In this document: in pieces, positions 4,970 to 26,047 of the stretch
How the letters are laid out: each line of letters begins with the position of its first letter
How positions within the stretch are numbered: the stretch's first letter is position 1
Origin: an uncultured Schumannella sp.
GTDB taxonomy: Bacteria > Actinomycetota > Actinomycetes > Actinomycetales > Microbacteriaceae
DNA: 64,000 bases
Reading direction: 5' to 3'
NCBI RefSeq assembly: GCF_905479755.1
Contig: NZ_CAJQNT010000023.1
Coordinates: 1 to 64,000 of the forward strand
Made by a program: the position numbers and the translations under genes
Notes under the pieces: model-generated
What the model was told of the DNA's origin: nothing
The model's database searches: none
What the model saw: the letters and a program-made list of their open reading frames with translations, nothing else

Positions 4970-6988
4970 TTAGCCGAGGCCGCGGCGCTCGAGCAAGGGC
5001 TCGATGACGGCGTCGCGGCCGCGGAACTCACGGTAGGCCTCGAGCGGATCCTTCGAGCCGCCCACGCCGAGCACGAGACGGCGGAAGGTCTCGCCGTTGG
5101 CGCGCGTGAGTCCGCTGTTCTCGTGGAACCACGCGACCGTGTCGGCGTCGAGCACCTCGCTCCAGATATAGGAGTAGTAGCCGGCGTCGTAGCCGCCCGC
5201 GAAGATGTGCGCGAAGTAGGTGCTCGAGTACCGCGGCGGGATCGCCGGATTGTCGAGCCCGGCCGCGGCGAGGGCGGTGGCCTCGAACTCGGCGACGTCG
5301 GTGACGGCGTTCGCCTCCTCGGGGCTCAGCGTGTGCCAGGCCTGGTCGAGCATCGCCGCGGCCAGGTACTCGCTCGTCGAGAAGCCTTCGTTGAACTGCT
5401 CCGAGGCGTGCAAGCGCTCGACGACGCCCGCGTCGATCGGCTCGCCGGTCTCGTAGTGCTTGGCGTAGTTGTCGAGGACCTCGGGCCAGAGCATCCACAT
5501 CTCGTTGACCTGGCTCGGGTACTCGACGAAGTCGCGGTAGACGTTGGTGCCCGCGAGTTTCGGGTACGTGACCCGCGCGAACATCCCGTGCAGGGCGTGA
5601 CCGAATTCGTGGAAGAGCGTGGAAACCTCGTCGAAGGTCAGGAGCGTCGGTTCGCCCTCGGCGGGCTTCGGCACGTTGAGGTTGTTGGTCACGACGACCG
5701 GCTGCCCGAGGAGCGAGTTCTGCGAGACGAGGGAGTTCATCCACGCCCCGCCGCGCTTGCTGTCGCGCGTGTAGAGATCCAGAACGTAGAGCCCGACGGG
5801 GGAGGCGTCCTCGTTTTTGACCTCGAAGATGCGCGCGTCGGGGTGGTAGTTCGCCAGGTCTCGGCGTTCGTGGAAGGTGATTCCGTAGAGCCGGGTGGCG
5901 GCGTAGAACACGCCGTCCTGCAGCACCCGTTCGGCTTCGAACCAGGGGCGGAGGGCGGCCGTGTCGACGTTGTAGCGCTCCTGGCGTTCCTTCTCGGTCC
6001 AGTAGGCCCAATCGGCCGCGCCGACCTCGCCGCCCGCCTGGCGTTCGAGTGCGGCGTGCTCGGCCTGCGCGTTGCGCGCGGCGGCCGGGGCGAGCCGGGT
6101 GAGCATGTCGGCGACGGCCGCGGGGGAGCCGGCGGTCTCGTCCGAGGTGACGGCCGCGGCGTGGTTCTCGAACCCGAGCAGGACGGCGCGTTCGGCGCGC
6201 AATCGCACAATCTGGAGCACCAACTCGCGCGTGTCGTGCTCACCCCCGCGGATGCCGCGCGCGCGTGAGGCCTCCAGGAGCCGCGCGCGGGTCTCGGGGC
6301 TCGTGAGGTCGGAGAGCGCCGGCTGGCCGGTCGGCAGGATGAGGGTGAGGAGGTAGCCCTCGAGCCCGCGCGACTTGGCGGCCTCGGCGGCCGCCGAGAT
6401 CTCGCCCGCCGAGAGGCCGTCGAGGTCGCTCGCGTCCTCGATGTGCACGGCGAGATCGTTGGTGTCGGCAAGGAGCGCCTTCTCGAATCGCGTGGTGAGC
6501 GTCGAGATCTTCTGGTTGAGTTCGCGCAGTCGGGTCTTGGCCGTCTCGTCGAGCCCCGCTCCGGCCTGCGTCATCTCGACGTGCCAGCGCTCGACGAGGT
6601 AGCGCTGTTCGTCGGTCAGAGGTTCGTCGCTTTCGTGCACCGCGGTGATCCGGGCGTAGAGCGCGTGGTCGAGCATGATCGCGTCGTGGTGTTCGGCGAG
6701 CTTCGGCGCGAGCTTCTCTTCGAGTTCGTTGGTGAAGTCGCTGGAGTGCGACGAGCTGAGGTGGAAGAAGACGTGGGAGACGCGCGAGAGCGTCTGACCG
6801 CTGCGCTCCAGCGCTTCGAGCGTGTTGGCGAAGGTGGCGGGCTCGGCCATGTCGGTGATCGCGGCGAGTTCTTCGAGCTGCGCGGCCATTCCGAGTTCGA
6901 AGGCCGGTTCGAAGTGCTCGTCCCGGATGTCCGCGAAGGGCGGGAACGCGTACGGAAGCAGGCTGGGCATCAGGAACGGATTGCTCAC
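4970..6988 (-). CDS. dcp: M3 family oligopeptidase / peptidyl-dipeptidase
   Basis: A 672-residue zinc metallopeptidase of the thimet oligopeptidase (M3) family, which degrades short peptides in the cytoplasm. The zinc motif is FHEFGHALHGMF with catalytic E461. The length, the N-terminus NPFLMPSLLPYAFPPF, the segment YSSTYFAHIFAGGYDAGYYSYIW and the C-terminal FRGRDAVIEPLL are all typical of Dcp/oligopeptidase A. The GTG at 6988 is used because the N-terminus then aligns with family members; AGGAGG lies immediately next to it, and an ATG at 6970 is the alternative. Its 3' end abuts the GH31 gene tail to tail. It is divergent from a regulator whose operator repeats lie in the 79-base gap, so that regulator may control it. 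Confidence 0.9.
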   Translation of the reverse strand: MSNPFLMPSLLPYAFPPFADIRDEHFEPAFELGMAAQLEELAAITDMAEPATFANTLEALERSGQTLSRVSHVFFHLSSSHSSDFTNELEEKLAPKLAEHHDAIMLDHALYARITAVHESDEPLTDEQRYLVERWHVEMTQAGAGLDETAKTRLRELNQKISTLTTRFEKALLADTNDLAVHIEDASDLDGLSAGEISAAAEAAKSRGLEGYLLTLILPTGQPALSDLTSPETRARLLEASRARGIRGGEHDTRELVLQIVRLRAERAVLLGFENHAAAVTSDETAGSPAAVADMLTRLAPAAARNAQAEHAALERQAGGEVGAADWAYWTEKERQERYNVDTAALRPWFEAERVLQDGVFYAATRLYGITFHERRDLANYHPDARIFEVKNEDASPVGLYVLDLYTRDSKRGGAWMNSLVSQNSLLGQPVVVTNNLNVPKPAEGEPTLLTFDEVSTLFHEFGHALHGMFARVTYPKLAGTNVYRDFVEYPSQVNEMWMLWPEVLDNYAKHYETGEPIDAGVVERLHASEQFNEGFSTSEYLAAAMLDQAWHTLSPEEANAVTDVAEFEATALAAAGLDNPAIPPRYSSTYFAHIFAGGYDAGYYSYIWSEVLDADTVAWFHENSGLTRANGETFRRLVLGVGGSKDPLEAYREFRGRDAVIEPLLERRGLG

Positions 6989-9395: not shown

Positions 9396-9841
9396 CAGAA
9401 TCTCTTCTCGTAGGTGACCCAGGTGGTGCGGGTGGCCACCCGGTCGTAGACCCGCTGCGCCGTCTCGTTGTCGGCAGCCGTGATCCAGCGCAGGGTGCCC
9501 GGTTCGCCCGCCTCGTGCGCGAGCGCGGTCAATGCCTCGATGAGTGCCGTGCCGACGCCGGCGCCGCGGGTTGCCGGGTCGACGTAGAGATCGTCGAGAT
9601 ACCAGTCCCAACCGCCGGTGAAGGTGTCCGGATGCCGCCGGTAGTGGGCTAATCCGACGAGCGTGCCGCCGTCCTCGGCGACGATCGCGTCGACGCCCGA
9701 CCCCGGTGTGAGGAGGATCCCGCCGACCCGATCGAGCAGTTCTTGCGAGAACTCGGTCTCGTAGAACACCCCGTAGGCGCGGAACAGTTCGCGCCAGGCG
9801 GGGAGGTCCTGCGCCGCAAGCTCACGGATCTGCACCGACAT
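9395..9841 (-). CDS. GNAT family N-acetyltransferase
   Basis: A 148-residue single-domain acetyltransferase. Motif A is clear: DLYVDPATRGAGVGTALIEALTALA, with the R-G-x-G-x-G/A acetyl-CoA loop, followed by LRWITAADNETAQRVYDRVA, a standard motif B. The C-terminus is WVTYEKRF. It transfers an acetyl group from acetyl-CoA to an unidentified amine. Its ATG overlaps the valS stop codon by one base (TGATG), so it is translationally coupled to valS, and it couples in the same way to the next small gene. Confidence 0.88.
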   Translation of the reverse strand: MSVQIRELAAQDLPAWRELFRAYGVFYETEFSQELLDRVGGILLTPGSGVDAIVAEDGGTLVGLAHYRRHPDTFTGGWDWYLDDLYVDPATRGAGVGTALIEALTALAHEAGEPGTLRWITAADNETAQRVYDRVATRTTWVTYEKRF

Positions 9842-12447
9842 CAGGACTCCGGCTGCTCCGCGAGCACGATCTCGGTCACGGCGACCTCCTCGGCCTCGAC
9901 GAGCGTCAACTCGGCGATGCGGCCGACGGCACGGAGATCGTCGACCGCCTCGGCCAGCATCGCCGGGCCCGCGAGCACGGCCGAGAGGACCTCGGTCTTC
10001 TGCGAGGCCTTGGCGTCGGTCTTGGCGCGCCGGATGCCGATGAGCGCGGCGCTCACCTCCGACAGCAGGCCGCGCGCGGTGCCGAATTCGGCCAGTTCGG
10101 CAGCCTCCGGCCAGGCGGCAGCGTGCACTGAGCTCGCGTGGGTCCAGCGCCACACCTCTTCGGTCGCGAACGGGATCACCGGGGCGAGCAGGCGCAAGAA
10201 CACGTCGATCGCGAGGCGGAGCGCCGCCACCGCGCTCGCCTGGGGTGCCCCGGCGCCGGTGTACGCGCGCTCCTTGACGAGCTCCAGGTAGTCGTCGCAG
10301 AAGGTCCAGAAGAACTGCTCGGTCACCTCGAGGGCCCGCGCGTGGTCGTACTCGCCGTACGCCTTCGTCGCCAGGCGCACCACCTCGGCGAGCCCGGCGA
10401 GCATGTCGCGGTCGAGCGGCTCGGTGATGGCGCTGGTCTCGATACGGCACTCCGGGCCTACTCGACCGGCATCCAGCGGGAACGAGTACACGAACTTAGA
10501 GGCGTTCAGCACCTTGATCGCGAGGCGACGCCCGATCTTCATCTGCTTCGGGTTCTGCGGGTCAAACGCCGCGTCGGTGCCGAGGCGCGAGCTGGCCGCC
10601 CAGTAGCGCACCGCATCCGAGCCGTGCTCCTCGAGCAGACCCGCGGGGGTGACCACGTTGCCCTTCGACTTCGACATCTTCTTGCGGTCGGGGTCGACGA
10701 TGAAGCCGGAGATTCCGGCGTTCTTCCACGGCACCTGGCCGTGCTCGAGCTCGGCGCGCAGCACCGTCGAAAACAACCAGGTGCGGATAATGTCCTGGCC
10801 CTGCGAGCGCAGCGCGTAGGGGAAGACCAGGTCGAACAGCTCGGGATCGCGTTCCCAGCCGCCCGCGATCTGCGGGGTCAGGCTGGAGGTCGCCCAGGTG
10901 TCCATGATGTCGAGCTCGCCCTCGAAGCCGCCCGGCACGCCGCGCTGATCGGCGGTGTAGCCGGCCGGAACATCGCTCGACGGGTCGACGGGAAGCGAGG
11001 CCTCGTCCGGCACGATCACGCCTGCGCGCTCGCCCTCGGCGTCGAGCTCGTACCAGACCGGCAGCGGCACACCGAAGAAGCGCTGACGCGAGATGAGCCA
11101 ATCGCCGGTGAGGCCGCCGACCCAGTTCTCGTAGCGGACGCGCATGAAGTCGGGGTGGAAGTCGATGCTCTTCCCGGCGGCGAGCAGGCGCTCCTTGAGG
11201 GCCTCGTCGCGCGCGCCGTTGGAGATGTACCACTGGCGGGTCGACACGATCTCGAGCGGCTTGTCGCCCTTCTCGAAGAACTTCACCGGGTGGGTGATCT
11301 TGCGCGGTTCGCCGTGCAGGTCACCCGATTCGGCGAGCAGTTCGACCATGCGTGCTTTGGCGCTGAAGACGGTCTTGCCGGCGAGTTCGGCGTAGGCGGC
11401 GCGGCCGGCGTCGCTGAAGAGCTCCTCGGCCGGCGCCTCGGCGATCAGCCGACCGTCGCGCCCGATCACGGTGCGGTTCGGCAGATCCAGTTCGCGCCAC
11501 CAGATGACGTCGGTCACGTCGCCGAAGGTGCAGATCATGGCGATTCCCGAGCCCTTGTCCTGCTGGGCGAGGCGGTGGGCGACCACGGGCACCTCGACGC
11601 CGAAGACCGGCGTCGTCACGGTGGTGCCGAACAGAGCTTGGTAGCGCTCGTCATCGGGATGCGCCACGAGAGCCACGCACGCCGGCAGCAGCTCCGGGCG
11701 AGTGGTCTCGATCTCGACCGTGCCGCCGTCGGGCTTGTGGAACGACACGCGGTGGTAAGCCGCGGGCTGGTCCTTGTCTTCGAGCTCGGCCTGGGCGACC
11801 GCGGTGCGGAAGGTCACGTCCCACAGGGTTGGGGCATCCGCCTGGTACGCCTCGCCGCGGGCGAGGTTTCGCAAGAACGCGCGCTGCGCGGTGGCGCGCG
11901 AGTGCTCGTCGATCGTGCGGTAGGTGAGCGACCAGTCGACGCTCAGCCCGAGCGTGCGCCACAGGTCTTCGAACTGCTTCTCGTCTTCGACGGTGAGCCG
12001 TTCGCAGAGCTCGACGAAGTTGCGGCGGCTGATCGGCTGCTGGTCGGCGGCCTTCGTGCTGGTGCCGTCGCCGCCGTCGTGCGGGGGAGTGAAGTCGGGG
12101 TCGTAGGGCAGCGTCGGGTCGCAGCGCACGCCGTAGTAGTTCTGCACCCGGCGCTCGGTGGGCAGCCCGTTGTCGTCCCACCCCATCGGGTAGAACAGGT
12201 GCTTGCCGTTCATGCGCTGGAAGCGCGCCGCGAGGTCCATGTGCGTGTAGCTGAAGACATGGCCGATGTGCAGGCTGCCGGAGGCGGTCGGCGGGGGCGT
12301 GTCGACGCTGAAGACCGCGTCCTTGCCCGCGGCAAGCGCGGCGGTGCGATCGAACCGGTGAGTGCCGTCGGCCTCCCACGTCTCGCCCCACTTGGCTTCG
12401 AGGCCCTCGAGCGCGGGCTTGTCGGGAATGGGGGCGCTGGCGTTCAC
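9841..12447 (-). CDS. valS: Valine--tRNA ligase
   Basis: An 868-residue class Ia aminoacyl-tRNA synthetase that charges tRNA-Val. The HIGH motif is HIGH at 60–63 in ASGSLHIGHVF and the KMSKS motif is at 590–594 (KKMSKSKGN). An editing domain lies between them and an anticodon-binding alpha domain follows. The GTG at 12447 is preferred: GGAG lies just upstream and the protein then starts MNASAPIPDKPALEGLE as relatives do; an in-frame ATG at 12483 is possible. Residues 661–671 (GRVGPECRIET) are encoded exactly by a 33-base copy of the dispersed palindrome, just before the ITEPLDRDML segment of the anticodon-binding domain. It heads an operon with a GNAT gene and a small protein gene. Confidence 0.95.
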   Translation of the reverse strand: MNASAPIPDKPALEGLEAKWGETWEADGTHRFDRTAALAAGKDAVFSVDTPPPTASGSLHIGHVFSYTHMDLAARFQRMNGKHLFYPMGWDDNGLPTERRVQNYYGVRCDPTLPYDPDFTPPHDGGDGTSTKAADQQPISRRNFVELCERLTVEDEKQFEDLWRTLGLSVDWSLTYRTIDEHSRATAQRAFLRNLARGEAYQADAPTLWDVTFRTAVAQAELEDKDQPAAYHRVSFHKPDGGTVEIETTRPELLPACVALVAHPDDERYQALFGTTVTTPVFGVEVPVVAHRLAQQDKGSGIAMICTFGDVTDVIWWRELDLPNRTVIGRDGRLIAEAPAEELFSDAGRAAYAELAGKTVFSAKARMVELLAESGDLHGEPRKITHPVKFFEKGDKPLEIVSTRQWYISNGARDEALKERLLAAGKSIDFHPDFMRVRYENWVGGLTGDWLISRQRFFGVPLPVWYELDAEGERAGVIVPDEASLPVDPSSDVPAGYTADQRGVPGGFEGELDIMDTWATSSLTPQIAGGWERDPELFDLVFPYALRSQGQDIIRTWLFSTVLRAELEHGQVPWKNAGISGFIVDPDRKKMSKSKGNVVTPAGLLEEHGSDAVRYWAASSRLGTDAAFDPQNPKQMKIGRRLAIKVLNASKFVYSFPLDAGRVGPECRIETSAITEPLDRDMLAGLAEVVRLATKAYGEYDHARALEVTEQFFWTFCDDYLELVKERAYTGAGAPQASAVAALRLAIDVFLRLLAPVIPFATEEVWRWTHASSVHAAAWPEAAELAEFGTARGLLSEVSAALIGIRRAKTDAKASQKTEVLSAVLAGPAMLAEAVDDLRAVGRIAELTLVEAEEVAVTEIVLAEQPES
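10435..10467 (-). repeat. Dispersed palindromic repeat copy inside valS
   Basis: On the minus strand this is GGTCGAGTAG, a diverged centre, then CGTATCGAGACC: 33 bases, the same length and ends as the complete unit at 1453–1485. Being a multiple of three, it adds eleven codons without breaking the valS frame. The centre (GCCCGGAGTGC) has lost the hairpin symmetry seen in other copies, which may reflect selection at the protein level. Confidence 0.88.
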
Positions 12448-12564
12448 GCGGACTCCGGTTCGATATCGGCGGCACCGAGTCAATGCCCCGAATCCGGGGC
12501 GAGGTGCCTGAGTGTGAGGTGTGATCCCAGTCTACCGACTCGTCCTGAGGGGTACGGTCAGCCC

Positions 12565-20734: not shown

Positions 20735-21000
20735 AACCAGTACGATGGTGGGAGCGACTTTGATCCGGCCATCACCGGGGAGTTCCGGGAAGAACGCGTT
20801 TCGGCGTCAGTAGAACCCGGCGGGTCAGCCCGTCACAGCGAGCAAAGAGCGGCGGAGGCGTTTCGCCGGTCGAGTCGCGGCGAAGCCGCGTATCGAGACC
20901 ACGACGCGCCCCCGCAAGCGAGGTGGTACCGCGGTTCCTGTTCGTCTCGAATGGGCGCCGTCCTCGTGGAGAGATCGACCCGCCACGAGTTGAGGACCAG
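20735..21000 (+). promoter_or_regulatory. ileS T-box leader, translational type
   Basis: The leader senses uncharged tRNA-Ile. Stem I contains GATCCGGCCATCACCGGGG with ATC (Ile) at 20771–20773 as the specifier, the classic actinobacterial ileS sequence, and then GGAAGAACG. The T-box core GGTGGTACCGCGG lies at 20922–20934. The Shine–Dalgarno GAGGAC (20992–20997) can pair with GTCCTC (20960–20965), extended by CGTGG/CCACG, and there is no T-run terminator. Control is therefore probably by sequestering the ribosome-binding site. A 33-base dispersed palindrome interrupts the linker between stem I and the T-box. Confidence 0.9.
20868..20900 (+). repeat. Dispersed palindromic repeat copy inside the ileS T-box
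   Basis: GGTCGAGT, a GCGGC-GAA-GCCGC hairpin, then GTATCGAGACC: 33 bases, matching the complete copy at 1453–1485 in length and ends. It lies between the stem I region and the antisequestrator of the T-box, so it would add one extra helix to the leader RNA. Confidence 0.9.
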
Positions 21001-24000
21001 ATGCCGTACCCCGCGATCCCCGCCTCCCCGGACTTTCCGGCCATCGAGCAGGGCATCCTCGCCTTCTGGAAGGGTGACGACACCTTCCGCGCCTCCGTCG
21101 ACCAGCGTGAGGGCTGCGACGAGTGGGTCTTCTACGACGGCCCGCCGTTCGCCAACGGCCTGCCGCACTACGGACACCTGCTGACCGGCTACGCGAAGGA
21201 CCTGTTCCCGCGCTATCAGACGATGCGCGGCAAGCAGGTGCACCGCCGCTTCGGCTGGGACACGCACGGCCTGCCCGCCGAGCTTGAGGCGATGCGGCAG
21301 CTCGGCATCACCACCAAGGACGAGATCGACGCGATGGGCGTCGAGGCCTTCAACGCGAAGGCGCGCGAGTCGGTGCTGCGCTACACGGGGGAGTGGGAAG
21401 AGTACGTCACCCGCCAGGCGCGCTGGGTCGACTTCGAGAACGACTACAAGACGCTCGACGTGAGCTTCATGGAGAGCGTGATCTGTGCCTTCAAACAGCT
21501 TCACGAGAAGGGCCTCGCCTACGAGGGTTTCCGTGTGCTGCCGTACTGCTGGAACGACGAGACCCCGCTGTCGAACCACGAACTGCGGATGGATGACGAC
21601 GTCTACCAGATGCGTCAAGACCAGTCCGTGACCGTGACCTTCCCGCTCGTGGGGGAGAAGGCGGAGGTGCTGGGTCTCACCGGCGTCAACGCGCTCGCCT
21701 GGACGACCACCCCGTGGACCCTGCCCACGAACTCGGCGCTCGCCGTCGGTCCGGAGATCGAGTACGCGCTCGTGCGCAGCGCTGACGGCGCGCACGAGTA
21801 CCTGCTCGCCGCCGACACGGTCTCGGCCTACGCGAAAGAGCTCGGTTATGACTCCACCGCCGAGATCGAGGTCGAGCGCACCGTGCGCGGCGCCGAGCTC
21901 GACGGCGTGCAGTACGACCGGCTCTGGGACTTCTACGTCGACGTTCCCGGCATGGAGAACGCCTGGCAGATTCTGGTGGCGGACTATGTCGCCACGGGCG
22001 AGGGAACCGGCATCGTGCACCAGGCGCCCGCCTACGGTGAAGACGACCAGATCGTCTGTGCCGCCGCGGGCATCCCCGTCGTGCTCTCGCTGACCGACAG
22101 TGGCCGATTCCTGCCCGAGGTCGCGCCGGTCGCGGGCCAATTGTGGTCCGACGCGAACAAGCCGCTCGTGCAGCTGCTGCGCGCCGAGGGGCGCCTGTTC
22201 CAGCTGAAGAGCTACGAGCACAGTTACCCGCACTGCTGGCGTTGCCGCAATCCGCTCATCTACAAGGCGGTGTCGAGCTGGTTCGTGCGTGTGCCCGAGT
22301 TCAAAGGCCGGATGGGCGAGCTCAACCAGCAGATCAACTGGGTGCCCGAGAATGTCAAGGACGGCCAGTTCGGCAAGTGGGTCGCGGGAGCGCGCGACTG
22401 GTCGATCAGCCGTAACCGGTATTGGGGCAGCCCGATTCCGGTCTGGAAGAGCGACAACCCCGAGTTCCCCCGCGTCGATGTCTACGGCTCGCTCGCCGAG
22501 CTCGAGGCCGACTTCGGCACGCTGCCGCGGAACGCCGCCGGCGAGCCCGACCTGCACCGCCCGTTCATCGACGAGCTGACCCGCCCGAACCCCGACGACC
22601 CGAGCGGACAGTCCACGATGCGGCGCATCGAGGACGTGCTCGATGTCTGGTTCGACTCCGGTTCGATGCCGTTCGCCCAGGTGCATTACCCGTTCGAGAA
22701 CGCCGAATGGTTCGACTCGCACAACCCGGCCGACTTCATCGTCGAGTACATCGGGCAGACCCGCGGCTGGTTCTACACGATGCACACGCTCGCCACGGCG
22801 CTGTTCGACCGTCCCGCGTTCAAGAATGTGATCAGCCACGGCATCGTGCTCGGCAACGACGGGCAGAAGATGTCCAAGAGCCTGCGCAACTACCCGAACG
22901 TCTCGGAGGTCTTCGACCGAGACGGGGCCGACGCCATGCGCTGGTTCCTGATGTCGAGTTCGGTGATCCGTGGCGGCAACCTGATCGTGACGGAGGAGGG
23001 CATCCGCGCGGGGGTGCGCGAGCTGCTGCTGCCGCTCTGGAGCACCTACTACTTCTTCACCCTCTACGCCAACTCTGCGGGCGATGACGGGTATACCGCG
23101 GCCTGGCGCACCGACTCGACGAACGTCCTCGATCGCTACCTGCTCGCGAAGACCCGCCAGCTCATCGTCGACACCACGAACGACCTCGACGCGCTCGACA
23201 GCCCCTTCGCGGCCGCGCGCCTGCGCGACTTCGCCGACGTGCTGACCAACTGGTATGTGCGGCGCAGCCGCGACCGGTTCTGGGACGGCACCGACACCGC
23301 CGCGTTCGACACCCTCTTCACGGTGCTCGAGACGGTCACGCGCGTGGCGGCCCCGCTCATCCCGCTGGTCTCGGAGGAGATCTGGCGCGGGCTCACCGGC
23401 GGCCGCAGCGTGCACCTGGAGGACTGGCCCGACGCGAGCGCGTTCCCCGAGGACGCGGCGCTTGTCGAGACCATGGACCGCGTGCGCGAGATCGCCTCCG
23501 CCGGTCTGGCGCTGCGCAAGGCGCGCCAGTTGCGCGTGCGCTTGCCGTTGGCCCGGCTCACGGTCGTCAGCGACGCCGCGGCGGGGCTGGCCGACTTCAC
23601 GGAGATCCTCGCGGACGAGCTGAACGTCAAGGAGGTGACGCTCGAGCCGCTTGTCGAGTCGAGCCTCGCCGACTTCGGGATCACCCGGCGCCTGAGCGTC
23701 AACGCCCGCGCCGCCGGTCCGCGACTCGGCAAGCAGGTGCAGCAGATCATCCGCGCCGCCAAGGCGGGCGTCTGGACGACCGACAGCGAGACGGTCGTTG
23801 TCGACGGAATCCCGCTCATCGAGGGGGAGTTCGAACTCGAACTCGAGGTCGCCGATGCCTCCAACGCGATCGCGTTTCTTCCCTCGGGCGGCTTCGCCCT
23901 GCTCGACACGACCGTCACCGCCGAACTCGCGGCGGAAGGCCTGGCGCGTGACGTCGTGCGGGCGGTGCAGCAGGCCCGCAAGGACGCCGGACTCGAGGTC

Positions 24001-24180
24001 AGCGACCGCATCACCTTGACCCTCGGCGCCGACGCGGCCGCGTTCGAGGCGATCACGGCGCATCGAGAGCTGATCGCCGCCGAGACGCTTGCCACCACCG
24101 TCCGGACCAACCAGGCTGGAGACGGAACCATTGCCGTCGGCGACGGGTCCACGATCTCGATCGGAGTGGAGCGCGCGTGA
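21001..24180 (+). CDS. ileS: Isoleucine--tRNA ligase
   Basis: A 1059-residue class Ia synthetase that charges tRNA-Ile. The HIGH motif is HYGH at 56–59 in [11 protein letters not shown], the editing domain contains [17 protein letters not shown], and KMSKS is at 623–627 ([10 protein letters not shown]). Its length and the HYGH variant fit the eukaryote-like IleS2 type common in Actinobacteria, some members of which resist mupirocin. ATG 21001 follows TGAGGA. It is controlled by the upstream T-box and its last codon overlaps folC as GTGA. Confidence 0.97.
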
Positions 24181-25568
24181 GCGACGACACCAGCAACGAA
24201 GCCGCCGCGGCCGACGAGTTCGACGACGAGTTCGCCGACGATGCCGCGGAGGTCTACCGCGAGCTGCTCGGTCGCATCGGCGAGGCGAACCCGCAGCCGC
24301 GGCTCGAGCCGACGCGTCGCGCGGTCGAACTGCTCGGTGATCCGCATCGCGCGGCCCCGGTCATTCATGTCACCGGCACGAACGGCAAGACCTCGACGGT
24401 GCGTATGATCGAGTCGATTCTGCGCGCGACGGGCCTGCGCACGGGGCTGCTGACGAGCCCGCACCTGGTCCGGGTCAACGAGCGCATCGTGATCGACGGC
24501 CGTCCGGTGTCGAACGAGGCCTTGGTGCGCAACTGGGCCGACATCGCCCCCTACCTGGTGATGGTGGATGCGGAACTGGTCACCGCGGGCGAAGAACCGC
24601 TCACCTACTTCGAGGCGCTCACCGCGCTCGCCTTCGCGATCTTCGCCGACGCCCCCGTCGACGTGATGGTGCTCGAGGTCGGAATGGGCGGCGAGTGGGA
24701 CTCCACGAACGTCGCCGACGGTCAGGTCGCGGTGTTCACCCCGATCGCGTTGGACCACCAGAACCGCCTGGGTGACACCATCGCCGAGATCGCGCGTACC
24801 AAGGCCGGCATCATCAAGCCGTCGGCCTCGGTCGTGAGCGCGATGCAACCGATCGAGGCGTTGGACGAGTTGCTCGAGGCGAGCGAGCGATTCGAGGCGA
24901 CGCTCGCGGTCGAGCGCCGCGACTTCGCGGTGACCTCCACGACGGTCGCCGTCGGCGGTCAGCTGGTGAGCGTGCGCGGACGCGCCGCCGAGTACGCCGA
25001 CCTCTTTCTCCCGCTCTACGGGGACCACCAGGCGCAGAACGCGGCACTCGCGATCGCGGCGGTCGAGTCGTTCCTGGGGGATGCGACGGTCGCGCTGGAT
25101 GCTGACGTGCTCGCCGAGGGGCTTGGCACGGTGACGTCGCCGGGTCGGCTGCAGCTGGTCGGCGTCGAACCCACCGTCCTCGTCGATGCGGCGCACAATC
25201 CGCACGGTGCCGCCGCGCTGGCGGCGGCGCTGCGGGAGTATTTCGATTTTGACGAGTTCGGCATCGTGCTCGGCGTGCTCGGCGACAAGGACGTGCACGG
25301 CATCGTCGAGGAGCTCTCCCCGGCTTCGATGCGCTTCTTCGTGACGCGCTCGCACTCCGATCGCGCGATCTCGGTAGAGGACCTCGCCTCGCGTGTCGTC
25401 GCCGTCGTGGGTCGCGACGGGGTCACGACGCATGCGGAACTCGGCGGAGCGCTGGATGCGGCCCGCGGCTGGGCGAGCGAGTCGCCGCGTCGCGCGGTCG
25501 TCGTCGCGGGCTCGATCACGCTCGTCGGCGAAGCGATCGAGCTCGCCGAGACGGGAGCCTGGAAATGA
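24177..25568 (+). CDS. folC: Bifunctional folylpolyglutamate synthase / dihydrofolate synthase
   Basis: A 463-residue Mur-ligase-family enzyme that adds glutamate to dihydropteroate or folate using ATP. The P-loop is GTNGKTST at 67–74, the folate-binding [11 protein letters not shown] follows, then the omega-type [14 protein letters not shown], and [12 protein letters not shown] is the Mur-ligase C-terminal domain signature. It starts with GTG overlapping the ileS stop, and its stop overlaps the DUF4233 gene (ATGA), so translation is coupled through the operon. An acidic N-terminal extension of about 25 residues precedes the core. Confidence 0.95.
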
Positions 25569-26047
25569 GCGCGCCGAGTAGCGCGCAGCCGGACAACAGC
25601 CGGTCGAGTAGCGCGCCGCCGGCTAACAGCCGGTCGAGTAGCGCGCAGCGCGTATCGAGACCCCGCCGCTCCCGCGGCGTGACCGAGGCCCTCCTCACGA
25701 TCGTCCTCAGCCTCGAAGCGTTCTTGATGTTCTTCGTGACGCTCGTCGCCTTCGGCCTGCGCTGGCTCGAACCCGTCGTGGCCTTCGCCGGCGGCGGTGC
25801 GTTCCTCGTCGTCCTCGTCGTCGTGGCAGGCCTCCAGCGCTTCCGCGCGGGCGTCGTCGCGGGCGCCGTCCTGCAGGTCGCCCTGATCGCCACCGGATTC
25901 GTTTCCCCCGTGCTGTTCGCGCTCGGCGCGGTCTTTGCGGGCATCTGGCTGTGGGCCTTCCTGCGGGCGCGCGCGATCGAAAAGGCGCGCGCCGACTACC
26001 TGGCCACCCATCCCGAGATCCCCACCTCTGAAGGAGAAGCAACGTGA
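25565..26047 (+). CDS. DUF4233 membrane protein with repeat-derived N-terminus
   Basis: A 160-residue protein placed between folC and ndk, the position of DUF4233 proteins in Actinobacteria. Three or four membrane helices lie at about 40–60, 66–85, 90–110 and 112–130, with TIVLSLEAFLMFFVTLVAFGLRWL opening the domain. The first 34 residues are not part of the domain. They are three near-copies of a 10-residue unit (SSAQPDNSRS, SSAPPANSRS, SSAQRVSRPR) encoded by a tandem dispersed repeat. The start overlaps folC as ATGA and the stop overlaps ndk as GTGA, so the repeats must be translated. The function is unknown. Confidence 0.85.
   Translation: MSAPSSAQPDNSRSSSAPPANSRSSSAQRVSRPRRSRGVTEALLTIVLSLEAFLMFFVTLVAFGLRWLEPVVAFAGGGAFLVVLVVVAGLQRFRAGVVAGAVLQVALIATGFVSPVLFALGAVFAGIWLWAFLRARAIEKARADYLATHPEIPTSEGEAT
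25575..25662 (+). repeat. Translated tandem array of the dispersed repeat (30-base period)
   Basis: CGAGTAGCGCGC begins at 25575, 25605 and 25635, exactly 30 bases apart, and the last copy completes the full unit ending GTATCGAGACC at 25662. The intergenic array at 1395–1485 has the same architecture but a 29-base period. Here the period is ten codons, so every unit encodes the same frame. Confidence 0.9.

Follow-up and report, generated by a model that had tools for sequence, protein, structure and literature searches.

The ileS leader in the window (the whole 64,000-nt stretch of DNA that was analysed) contains a T-box whose stem III is capped by a copy of a genome-wide palindromic repeat. 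It is probable that a REP/MITE-like palindrome of the Microbacteriaceae entered this ileS T-box at the stem III apical loop and was tolerated there. Stem III would be a peripheral helix, the tip of which has no apparent sequence conservation, and the repeat's own hairpin would lengthen it and leave the specifier, the S-turn, stem IIA/B, the RRRxG and AA purines and the T-box bulge unchanged. A switch altered only in this way should remain able to bind uncharged tRNA-Ile and to make the ileS start region accessible. In other lineages the same repeat family, and apparently a second one, would have landed independently at the tips of stems II and III, presumably because insertion there does no harm. 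From the patterns described below, we infer transposition-like mobility of the repeat, neutrality of the insertion and retained function of the switch.

The ileS leader and its repeat

The T-box leader lies on the + strand, from about 20750 to the ATG of ileS at 21001. The gene (21001..24180, + strand) was assigned to isoleucyl-tRNA synthetase from its ORF, its translation and a homology search. Every one of the 32 genomes searched matched its first 200 amino acids at E<=0.001; the weakest match was that in G298 (2.6e-6), and the other 31 reached 2.4e-118 or better. The Rfam T-box model (RF00230) matched the leader at 20751-20951 with 23.8 bits (E 0.0025 on 501 bases), the gathering score being 93, and at Rfam gathering thresholds the window yields a tRNA alone and no T-box. 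The two other actinobacterial ileS leaders compared with this model also fall below its gathering score: L134 scored 38.0 bits and L135 gave no match at E<=0.01. The specifier ATC in the stem I loop agrees with the isoleucine gene downstream. The T-box core sequence GGTGGTACCGCGG is present and its pairing with the 3' end of the tRNA is predicted from sequence; the TGGT of the core presumably suits the 3' end of a tRNA-Ile with discriminator A. A covariance model, R1, was built from 30 repeat-free leaders out of 44 that met the length limits, and it matched 10 of the 10 sources given. It scored the window leader at 119.1 bits, compared with 118.6 for the repeat-free leader of G001, a genome of the same genus that is itself in the model; the lowest score was that of G110 (52.9).

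The elements of the leader, all on the + strand, follow in the order expected of a T-box. Stem I is an ultrashort hairpin, CCGG-CCATCA-CCGG (20765..20778), recognized from the sequence, the Rfam alignment and R1; its CCATCA terminal loop holds the specifier ATC (Ile) at 20771-20773, read from the sequence. The same three sources define stem II (20785..20820), in which CCGGG at 20785-89 faces CCCGG at 20816-20. Stem II has AAGAA and AGTAGAA as S-turn sequences, and its apical hairpin is variable; in relatives this hairpin is the second site at which the palindromic repeat has landed. The stem IIA/B element, CGGG/CCCG and then TCA (20821..20835), comes from the Rfam alignment and R1; its pseudoknot is an expectation at the sequence level. 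RNA folding and R1 agree on stem III, with a 5' arm GCGG-A-GGCGT-T-TCG at 20852..20865 and a 3' arm CGA-C-GCGCC-C-CCGC at 20902..20915. The stem is preceded by the purine string GAGCG (RRRxG; 20847..20851) and followed by an AA dinucleotide (20916..20917), both found in the sequence by motifs taken from passages of PMC7583486, in which RRRxG-stem III-AA is described as part of the discriminator and stem III as formerly mistaken for linker. The T-box core, or antisequestrator, occupies 20922..20934 (sequence, Rfam alignment and R1). A possible sequestrator hairpin, GTCCTCGTGG...CCACGAG..GAGGAC (20960..20997), was picked out by eye and is absent from the whole-leader MFE fold; it would hide the Shine-Dalgarno-like GAGGAC. 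In the RNAalifold structure of the 30-leader model the specifier loop AUCACC (20771-20776) is paired with the T-box GGUGGU (20922-20927), possibly an alternative fold; these complementary sequences are both nearly invariant in the 30 leaders, and the pairing was not taken as real.

The repeat copy at 20868-20900 (33 nt, palindromic, + strand) reads GGTCGAGT-CGCGGC-GAA-GCCGCG-TATCGAGACC, and its assignment draws on the sequence, the pattern matches in the genome and shuffles of the stem. A sequence-only reading had reported this copy of a genomic repeat, with the specifier at 20771 and the core at 20922, and the sequence agrees with it on each point. The helix of its own that it had foreseen for the repeat, GCGGC-GAA-GCCGC, is also borne out, as the CGCGGC-GAA-GCCGCG hairpin (20876-81/20885-90) has pair probabilities of 0.985-1.0 in the whole-leader fold. 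Its placing of the repeat in the linker has been abandoned, since stem II, stem IIA/B and stem III intervene, and the folds and the covariance model put the repeat at the tip of stem III in the discriminator that senses aminoacylation, between the arms at 20852-20865 and 20902-20915. The covariance comparison with relatives that it had proposed gave 48 residues in the stem III loop of the window versus 5 model positions. It had also named the finding that would speak against an insertion, a helix of this sequence conserved in all relatives; among the 112 other leaders a recognizable stem III copy was seen only in G299.

With the 33 nt removed, the MFE structure of the leader changes only by the loss of the added hairpin, and the sequence motifs of the T-box core are intact. 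The base pair probability of stem III falls from 0.81 without the insert to 0.55 with it, so that an effect on folding is possible. Outside stems I and III the leader MFE differs from the canonical T-box fold and therefore tells little about switching.

The strict pattern for the repeat, GGTCGAGTN{10,40}TATCGAGACC, matches this genome 23 times, at 22 places because two matches overlap, and the looser GGTYGAGTN{8,38}TATCGARACC matches 61 times; neither pattern matched when reversed. Strict matches are 31-35 nt long, with fixed, imperfectly inverted ends of 8 and 10 nt around a stem that varies in sequence. For the 19 distinct sequences among the 23 matches the inner stem averages 5.2 bp (range 2-6), compared with a mean of 2.1 bp in 500 shuffles, the highest mean of which was 3.05. 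GAGTAG stands beside the stem in 19 of the 23; the ileS copy has GAGTCG instead. The looser pattern was found in 19 of 42 family genomes (about 13 picked for T-box hits or high counts, the others at even steps), at 1 to 640 copies and with no control matches. By crude ORF calls, the copies outside predicted long ORFs number 30 of 64 in G277, 19 of 43 in G045 and 1 of 5 in the window. No target duplication was recognized by eye in the flanks of the copies. The Y1_Tnp (PF01797) transposase profile, positive in 5 of 14 control genomes, had no match in 30 genomes, this one and 16 other carriers by the looser pattern among them, and for this absence a RAYT was rejected as the mobilizer of the repeat.

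Other copies in the window are arranged in several ways. Those at 1395-1579 form a cluster in which both orientations occur and the left half, together with its flank, is partly duplicated in tandem. A full copy and a half copy stand in tandem at 25602-25662, near the start of ORF 25565-26047, and encode part of the N-terminal stretch of this membrane-protein-like ORF, the true start of which may be further down. The copy at 10435-10467 (- strand) is in frame in the valS ORF 9841-12483 and encodes GRVGPECRIET; of the relatives compared, G304 has a shorter ValS loop at this place, and in G126 and G001 the loop differs.

Insertions in other leaders

The repeat was sought beside T-boxes in 398 genomes of the family, including this one (G000). 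The strict two-way pattern was found near a T-box in G000 alone (1 of 398), with no control matches. The looser forward pattern gave 3 of 398 and one control match (G205); G000 and G299 are real, and the match in G327 does not resemble the repeat. In G299, a Glaciihabitans MAG, the same repeat family caps stem III, and L134 has an identical leader; it was through this match that the genomes were assigned to Microbacteriaceae. A forward pattern for stem II matched in 8 genomes, of which G110, G126 and G390 have the match in an ileS T-box; no T-box is present at the G277 match near GTAGAACC (L139), and no T-box leader at those of G079, G290, G263 and G013. The reversed stem II pattern matched at 18 places in 15 of the 398 genomes, with two control matches (G014 and G156), and the 15 places inspected contained no T-box. 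Reading of genus relatives added a stem II insertion in G385. Thus G110, G126, G385 and G390 all have a member of the same repeat family in the loop at the tip of stem II, and in the R1 alignment the surplus residues of G126 fall in this loop (44 versus 4 positions). G126 and G385 belong to one genus and may share a single insertion event. In total there are at least five captures of the same repeat family, in five genera. Stem II of G113, read in the same way as that of G385, likely contains a remnant of the repeat. Left-end-like CGCTGGTCGAG in stem III of G030 and G023 was not counted as a capture. The length-variable regions of the 30-leader alignment are the tips of stems II and III; in G001, of the same genus as the window, there is no repeat, and stem III is short with a tip that cannot be aligned to that of the window.

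A different palindrome, CTGAGCCTGTCGAAG, is found in stem III of G167, with a near match to it in stem II of G218. Six copies of CTGAGCYTGTCGAAG, counting that of the leader itself, were found in 1.26 Mb of loci, compared with none for each of two controls. A second palindromic family has apparently also landed in stem tips of ileS T-boxes. A regular expression for both families matched 10 of 113 leaders, compared with a mean of 0.54 after mononucleotide shuffling; it missed G299, which was added by hand, and its weak matches in G044 and G311 were not counted as captures. The 113 leaders examined are not an unbiased sample: 89 were found by similarity to the window leader (126 genomes matched among 150 searched), and 24 were reached by way of IleS in genera that had given hits, except that G390 came from L143. 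Of the 89, three resisted division into segments and another (L121) was segmented incorrectly. A single partial match, in Tsukamurella, came from BLAST of the leader against plasmids. The ileS T-boxes L152 (G110), L161 (G218) and L172 (G311) appear to be without the stem IIA/B sequence that the others printed have.

In an IleRS tree of 30 rows, G299 and G261 are sisters (100/94), as are G390 and G367 (98/93), and only one member of each pair carries the insertion (G299 and G390, respectively). Within Microbacteriaceae, insertion has recurred and is confined to particular lineages. The G390 assembly (81% complete) has two ileS copies on different contigs (L174 and L143); the one that bears the repeat is open over no more than 397 aa, which may mean contamination or a gene in two pieces.

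A forward pattern was also run over the genome collection and matched eight stretches, Glaciihabitans and MAGs from beyond the family among them. L131, from an Anaerolineae MAG, has a T-box of 95.2 bits, above the Rfam gathering score, before pheS-like and pheT-like ORFs. At 5222-5264 (- strand) its stem III tip holds GGTTGAGTAG...CGTATCGAAACC, with both ends complete. There is no second copy in the 8 kb of L131, and the look-alike may therefore reflect either convergence or distant kinship. L135, from an Actinomycetota MAG, has an ileS T-box with a degenerate form of the repeat, and close to it an intact copy. L132, from a Mollicutes MAG, has a T-box, but the match overlies the S-turn sequence and was taken as chance. 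By eye, L128, L129, L130 and L133 are not T-box-like.

Tolerance and its alternatives

The sequence-only reading had left a choice between a leader that tolerates the added helix and a repeat that changes switching. The sequence evidence leans to the former, and there may be a quantitative effect on switching. An added helix might tune the switch, a longer stem III altering co-transcriptional folding or the ON/OFF balance and being kept for that. We regard this as unlikely, although several observations are in its favor: insertions in five genera fall repeatedly in the same two helices, the insert reduces predicted stem III pairing, and passages of PMC7583486 suggest that extra helices of the discriminator may help refolding. 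All verified ileS T-box insertions of the repeat family are also on the same strand, with 3 verified forward cases in stem II versus none at the 15 inspected of 18 reversed places, and 2 forward cases in stem III versus none reversed under the strict two-way pattern. However, ordinary copies between co-directional genes are biased as well (18 sense versus 5 antisense in G277 and G045, by crude ORF calls), and this bias could alone account for the constant strand in T-boxes. Furthermore, insertions have been gained or lost between sister species, the helices and repeat families used differ, and captures are not clearly more numerous than the background density of repeats would give. The last point comes from a rough estimate. 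In 29 genomes, every fifth from G005 to G145, the looser pattern found 903 copies, of which G045 alone contributed 640. With genomes of about 3.1 Mb that are 10% non-coding, this is 1 copy per 10 kb of non-coding DNA, or 1 per 33 kb excluding G045, if all copies are non-coding, and half these densities if about half of the copies lie in ORFs. If each of the 398 leaders offers 50 nt of free loop, which is a guess, the target is 20 kb, and some 0.3-2 captures are expected by chance. With the same strict ends 3 were observed (G000, G110 and G390), or 2 if the window, chosen for having the repeat, is excluded; G299 and G126 enter only with looser ends. Like for like, there is no clear excess, though the five taken together would amount to an excess.

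Two further explanations fared worse. Stem III tips are highly variable across the family, and a naturally variable stem could have converged by chance on the repeat sequence with no insertion at all. This is extremely improbable, as the 33 nt match a genome-wide family at both fixed ends, the strict pattern beside a T-box was found in 1 of 398 genomes with no control matches, and 10 of 113 leaders have motif hits, compared with 0.54 in shuffles. Alternatively, the mobilizing machinery might prefer hairpin loops, the T-box stems being targets and not tolerated sites. Every verified T-box case is at a helix tip, and pairing between the flanks of the ileS copy is strong (-24.0 kcal/mol). Nevertheless, copy flanks in general pair no better than swapped flanks (-13.95 v -13.72 for 33 copies of G000, the ileS copy included; -12.12 v -12.17 for 64 of G277; -13.13 v -13.19 for 43 of G045), and selection against hits elsewhere in the leader accounts for the pattern. 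Hairpin-loop targeting was rejected on the flank comparison and has in our view very little chance of being correct. Since the flanks show no special pairing, the strand bias could be an ordinary one and the density is without clear excess, tolerance is favored, as it is for the in-frame valS copy of the same window. A broader proposition is that palindromic mobile DNA repeatedly docks at the tips of T-box stems II and III, in phyla ranging from Actinomycetota to Chloroflexota, and that the captured helices become new regulatory parts which retune the switch of each lineage. We hold it to be doubtful, with some small chance of being right; if true, nature would have supplied a set of insertion mutants of a single riboswitch.

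Comparison with known systems

These leaders constitute a natural experiment on the burden that a tRNA-sensing riboswitch can bear, in the form of a helix extended at a defined place. Pairs with and without the insertion are available in sister species (G299/G261 and G390/G367) and within one genus (G000/G001), and repeat insertion may account for part of the stem II and III length variation in these leaders. The window leader resembles the translational T-box with ultrashort stem I (the actinobacterial ileS type; RF00230) in its specifier loop, stem II S-turns, stem IIA/B, RRRxG-stem III-AA and core before ileS. It differs from the usual T-box in that stem III is extended by a genomic repeat, and its 23.8 bits are under the gathering score of 93. 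According to passages of PMC7583486, translational T-boxes often have additional stem III insertions; no origin is given for them there.

The repeat itself is similar to REP elements of the GTAG super-family, as portrayed in parts of PMC3733652, in being a short multi-copy palindrome, within the 20-40 nt expected of a REP element, with some copies inside genes and in having GTAG adjoin the stem in 19 of 23 matches. Unlike those elements, the ileS copy has GAGTCG, no RAYT/Y1 transposase was found in 30 genomes, and the repeat consists of fixed 8- and 10-nt ends around a changing stem. Of six actinobacterial terms sought in the main text of PMC3733652, none occurs there. Compared with a MITE, the ends are imperfectly inverted and the flanks contain no target duplication recognizable by eye. 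A literature search on the letters of the repeat returned one unrelated paper, and the papers listed for REP and palindromes in Actinobacteria and Microbacteriaceae include no report of T-box insertion. Nor do the papers listed for riboswitches, T-boxes and mobile elements, mostly from openly available literature, include a report of a palindromic repeat or mobile element inside a riboswitch or T-box. What is already known are the Rickettsia palindromic elements (RPE) in RNAs (cited passages of PMC2229807) and the extra stem III insertions (PMC7583486, in part); we found no paper that joins the two. RPE occur inside tmRNA and M1 RNA (Ogata 2002, as related in PMC2229807). The present repeat shares with them its place in a structured RNA gene, its in-frame occurrence in proteins and its presumed neutrality, as far as the relevant passages of PMC2229807 describe them. 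It differs in size (about 33 bp, compared with 105-146 bp for RPE), in lying within a riboswitch and in recurring at two defined helices. Mobile-type palindromes would enter the regulatory RNA of an essential gene, as they are known to have entered tmRNA and M1 RNA in Rickettsia.
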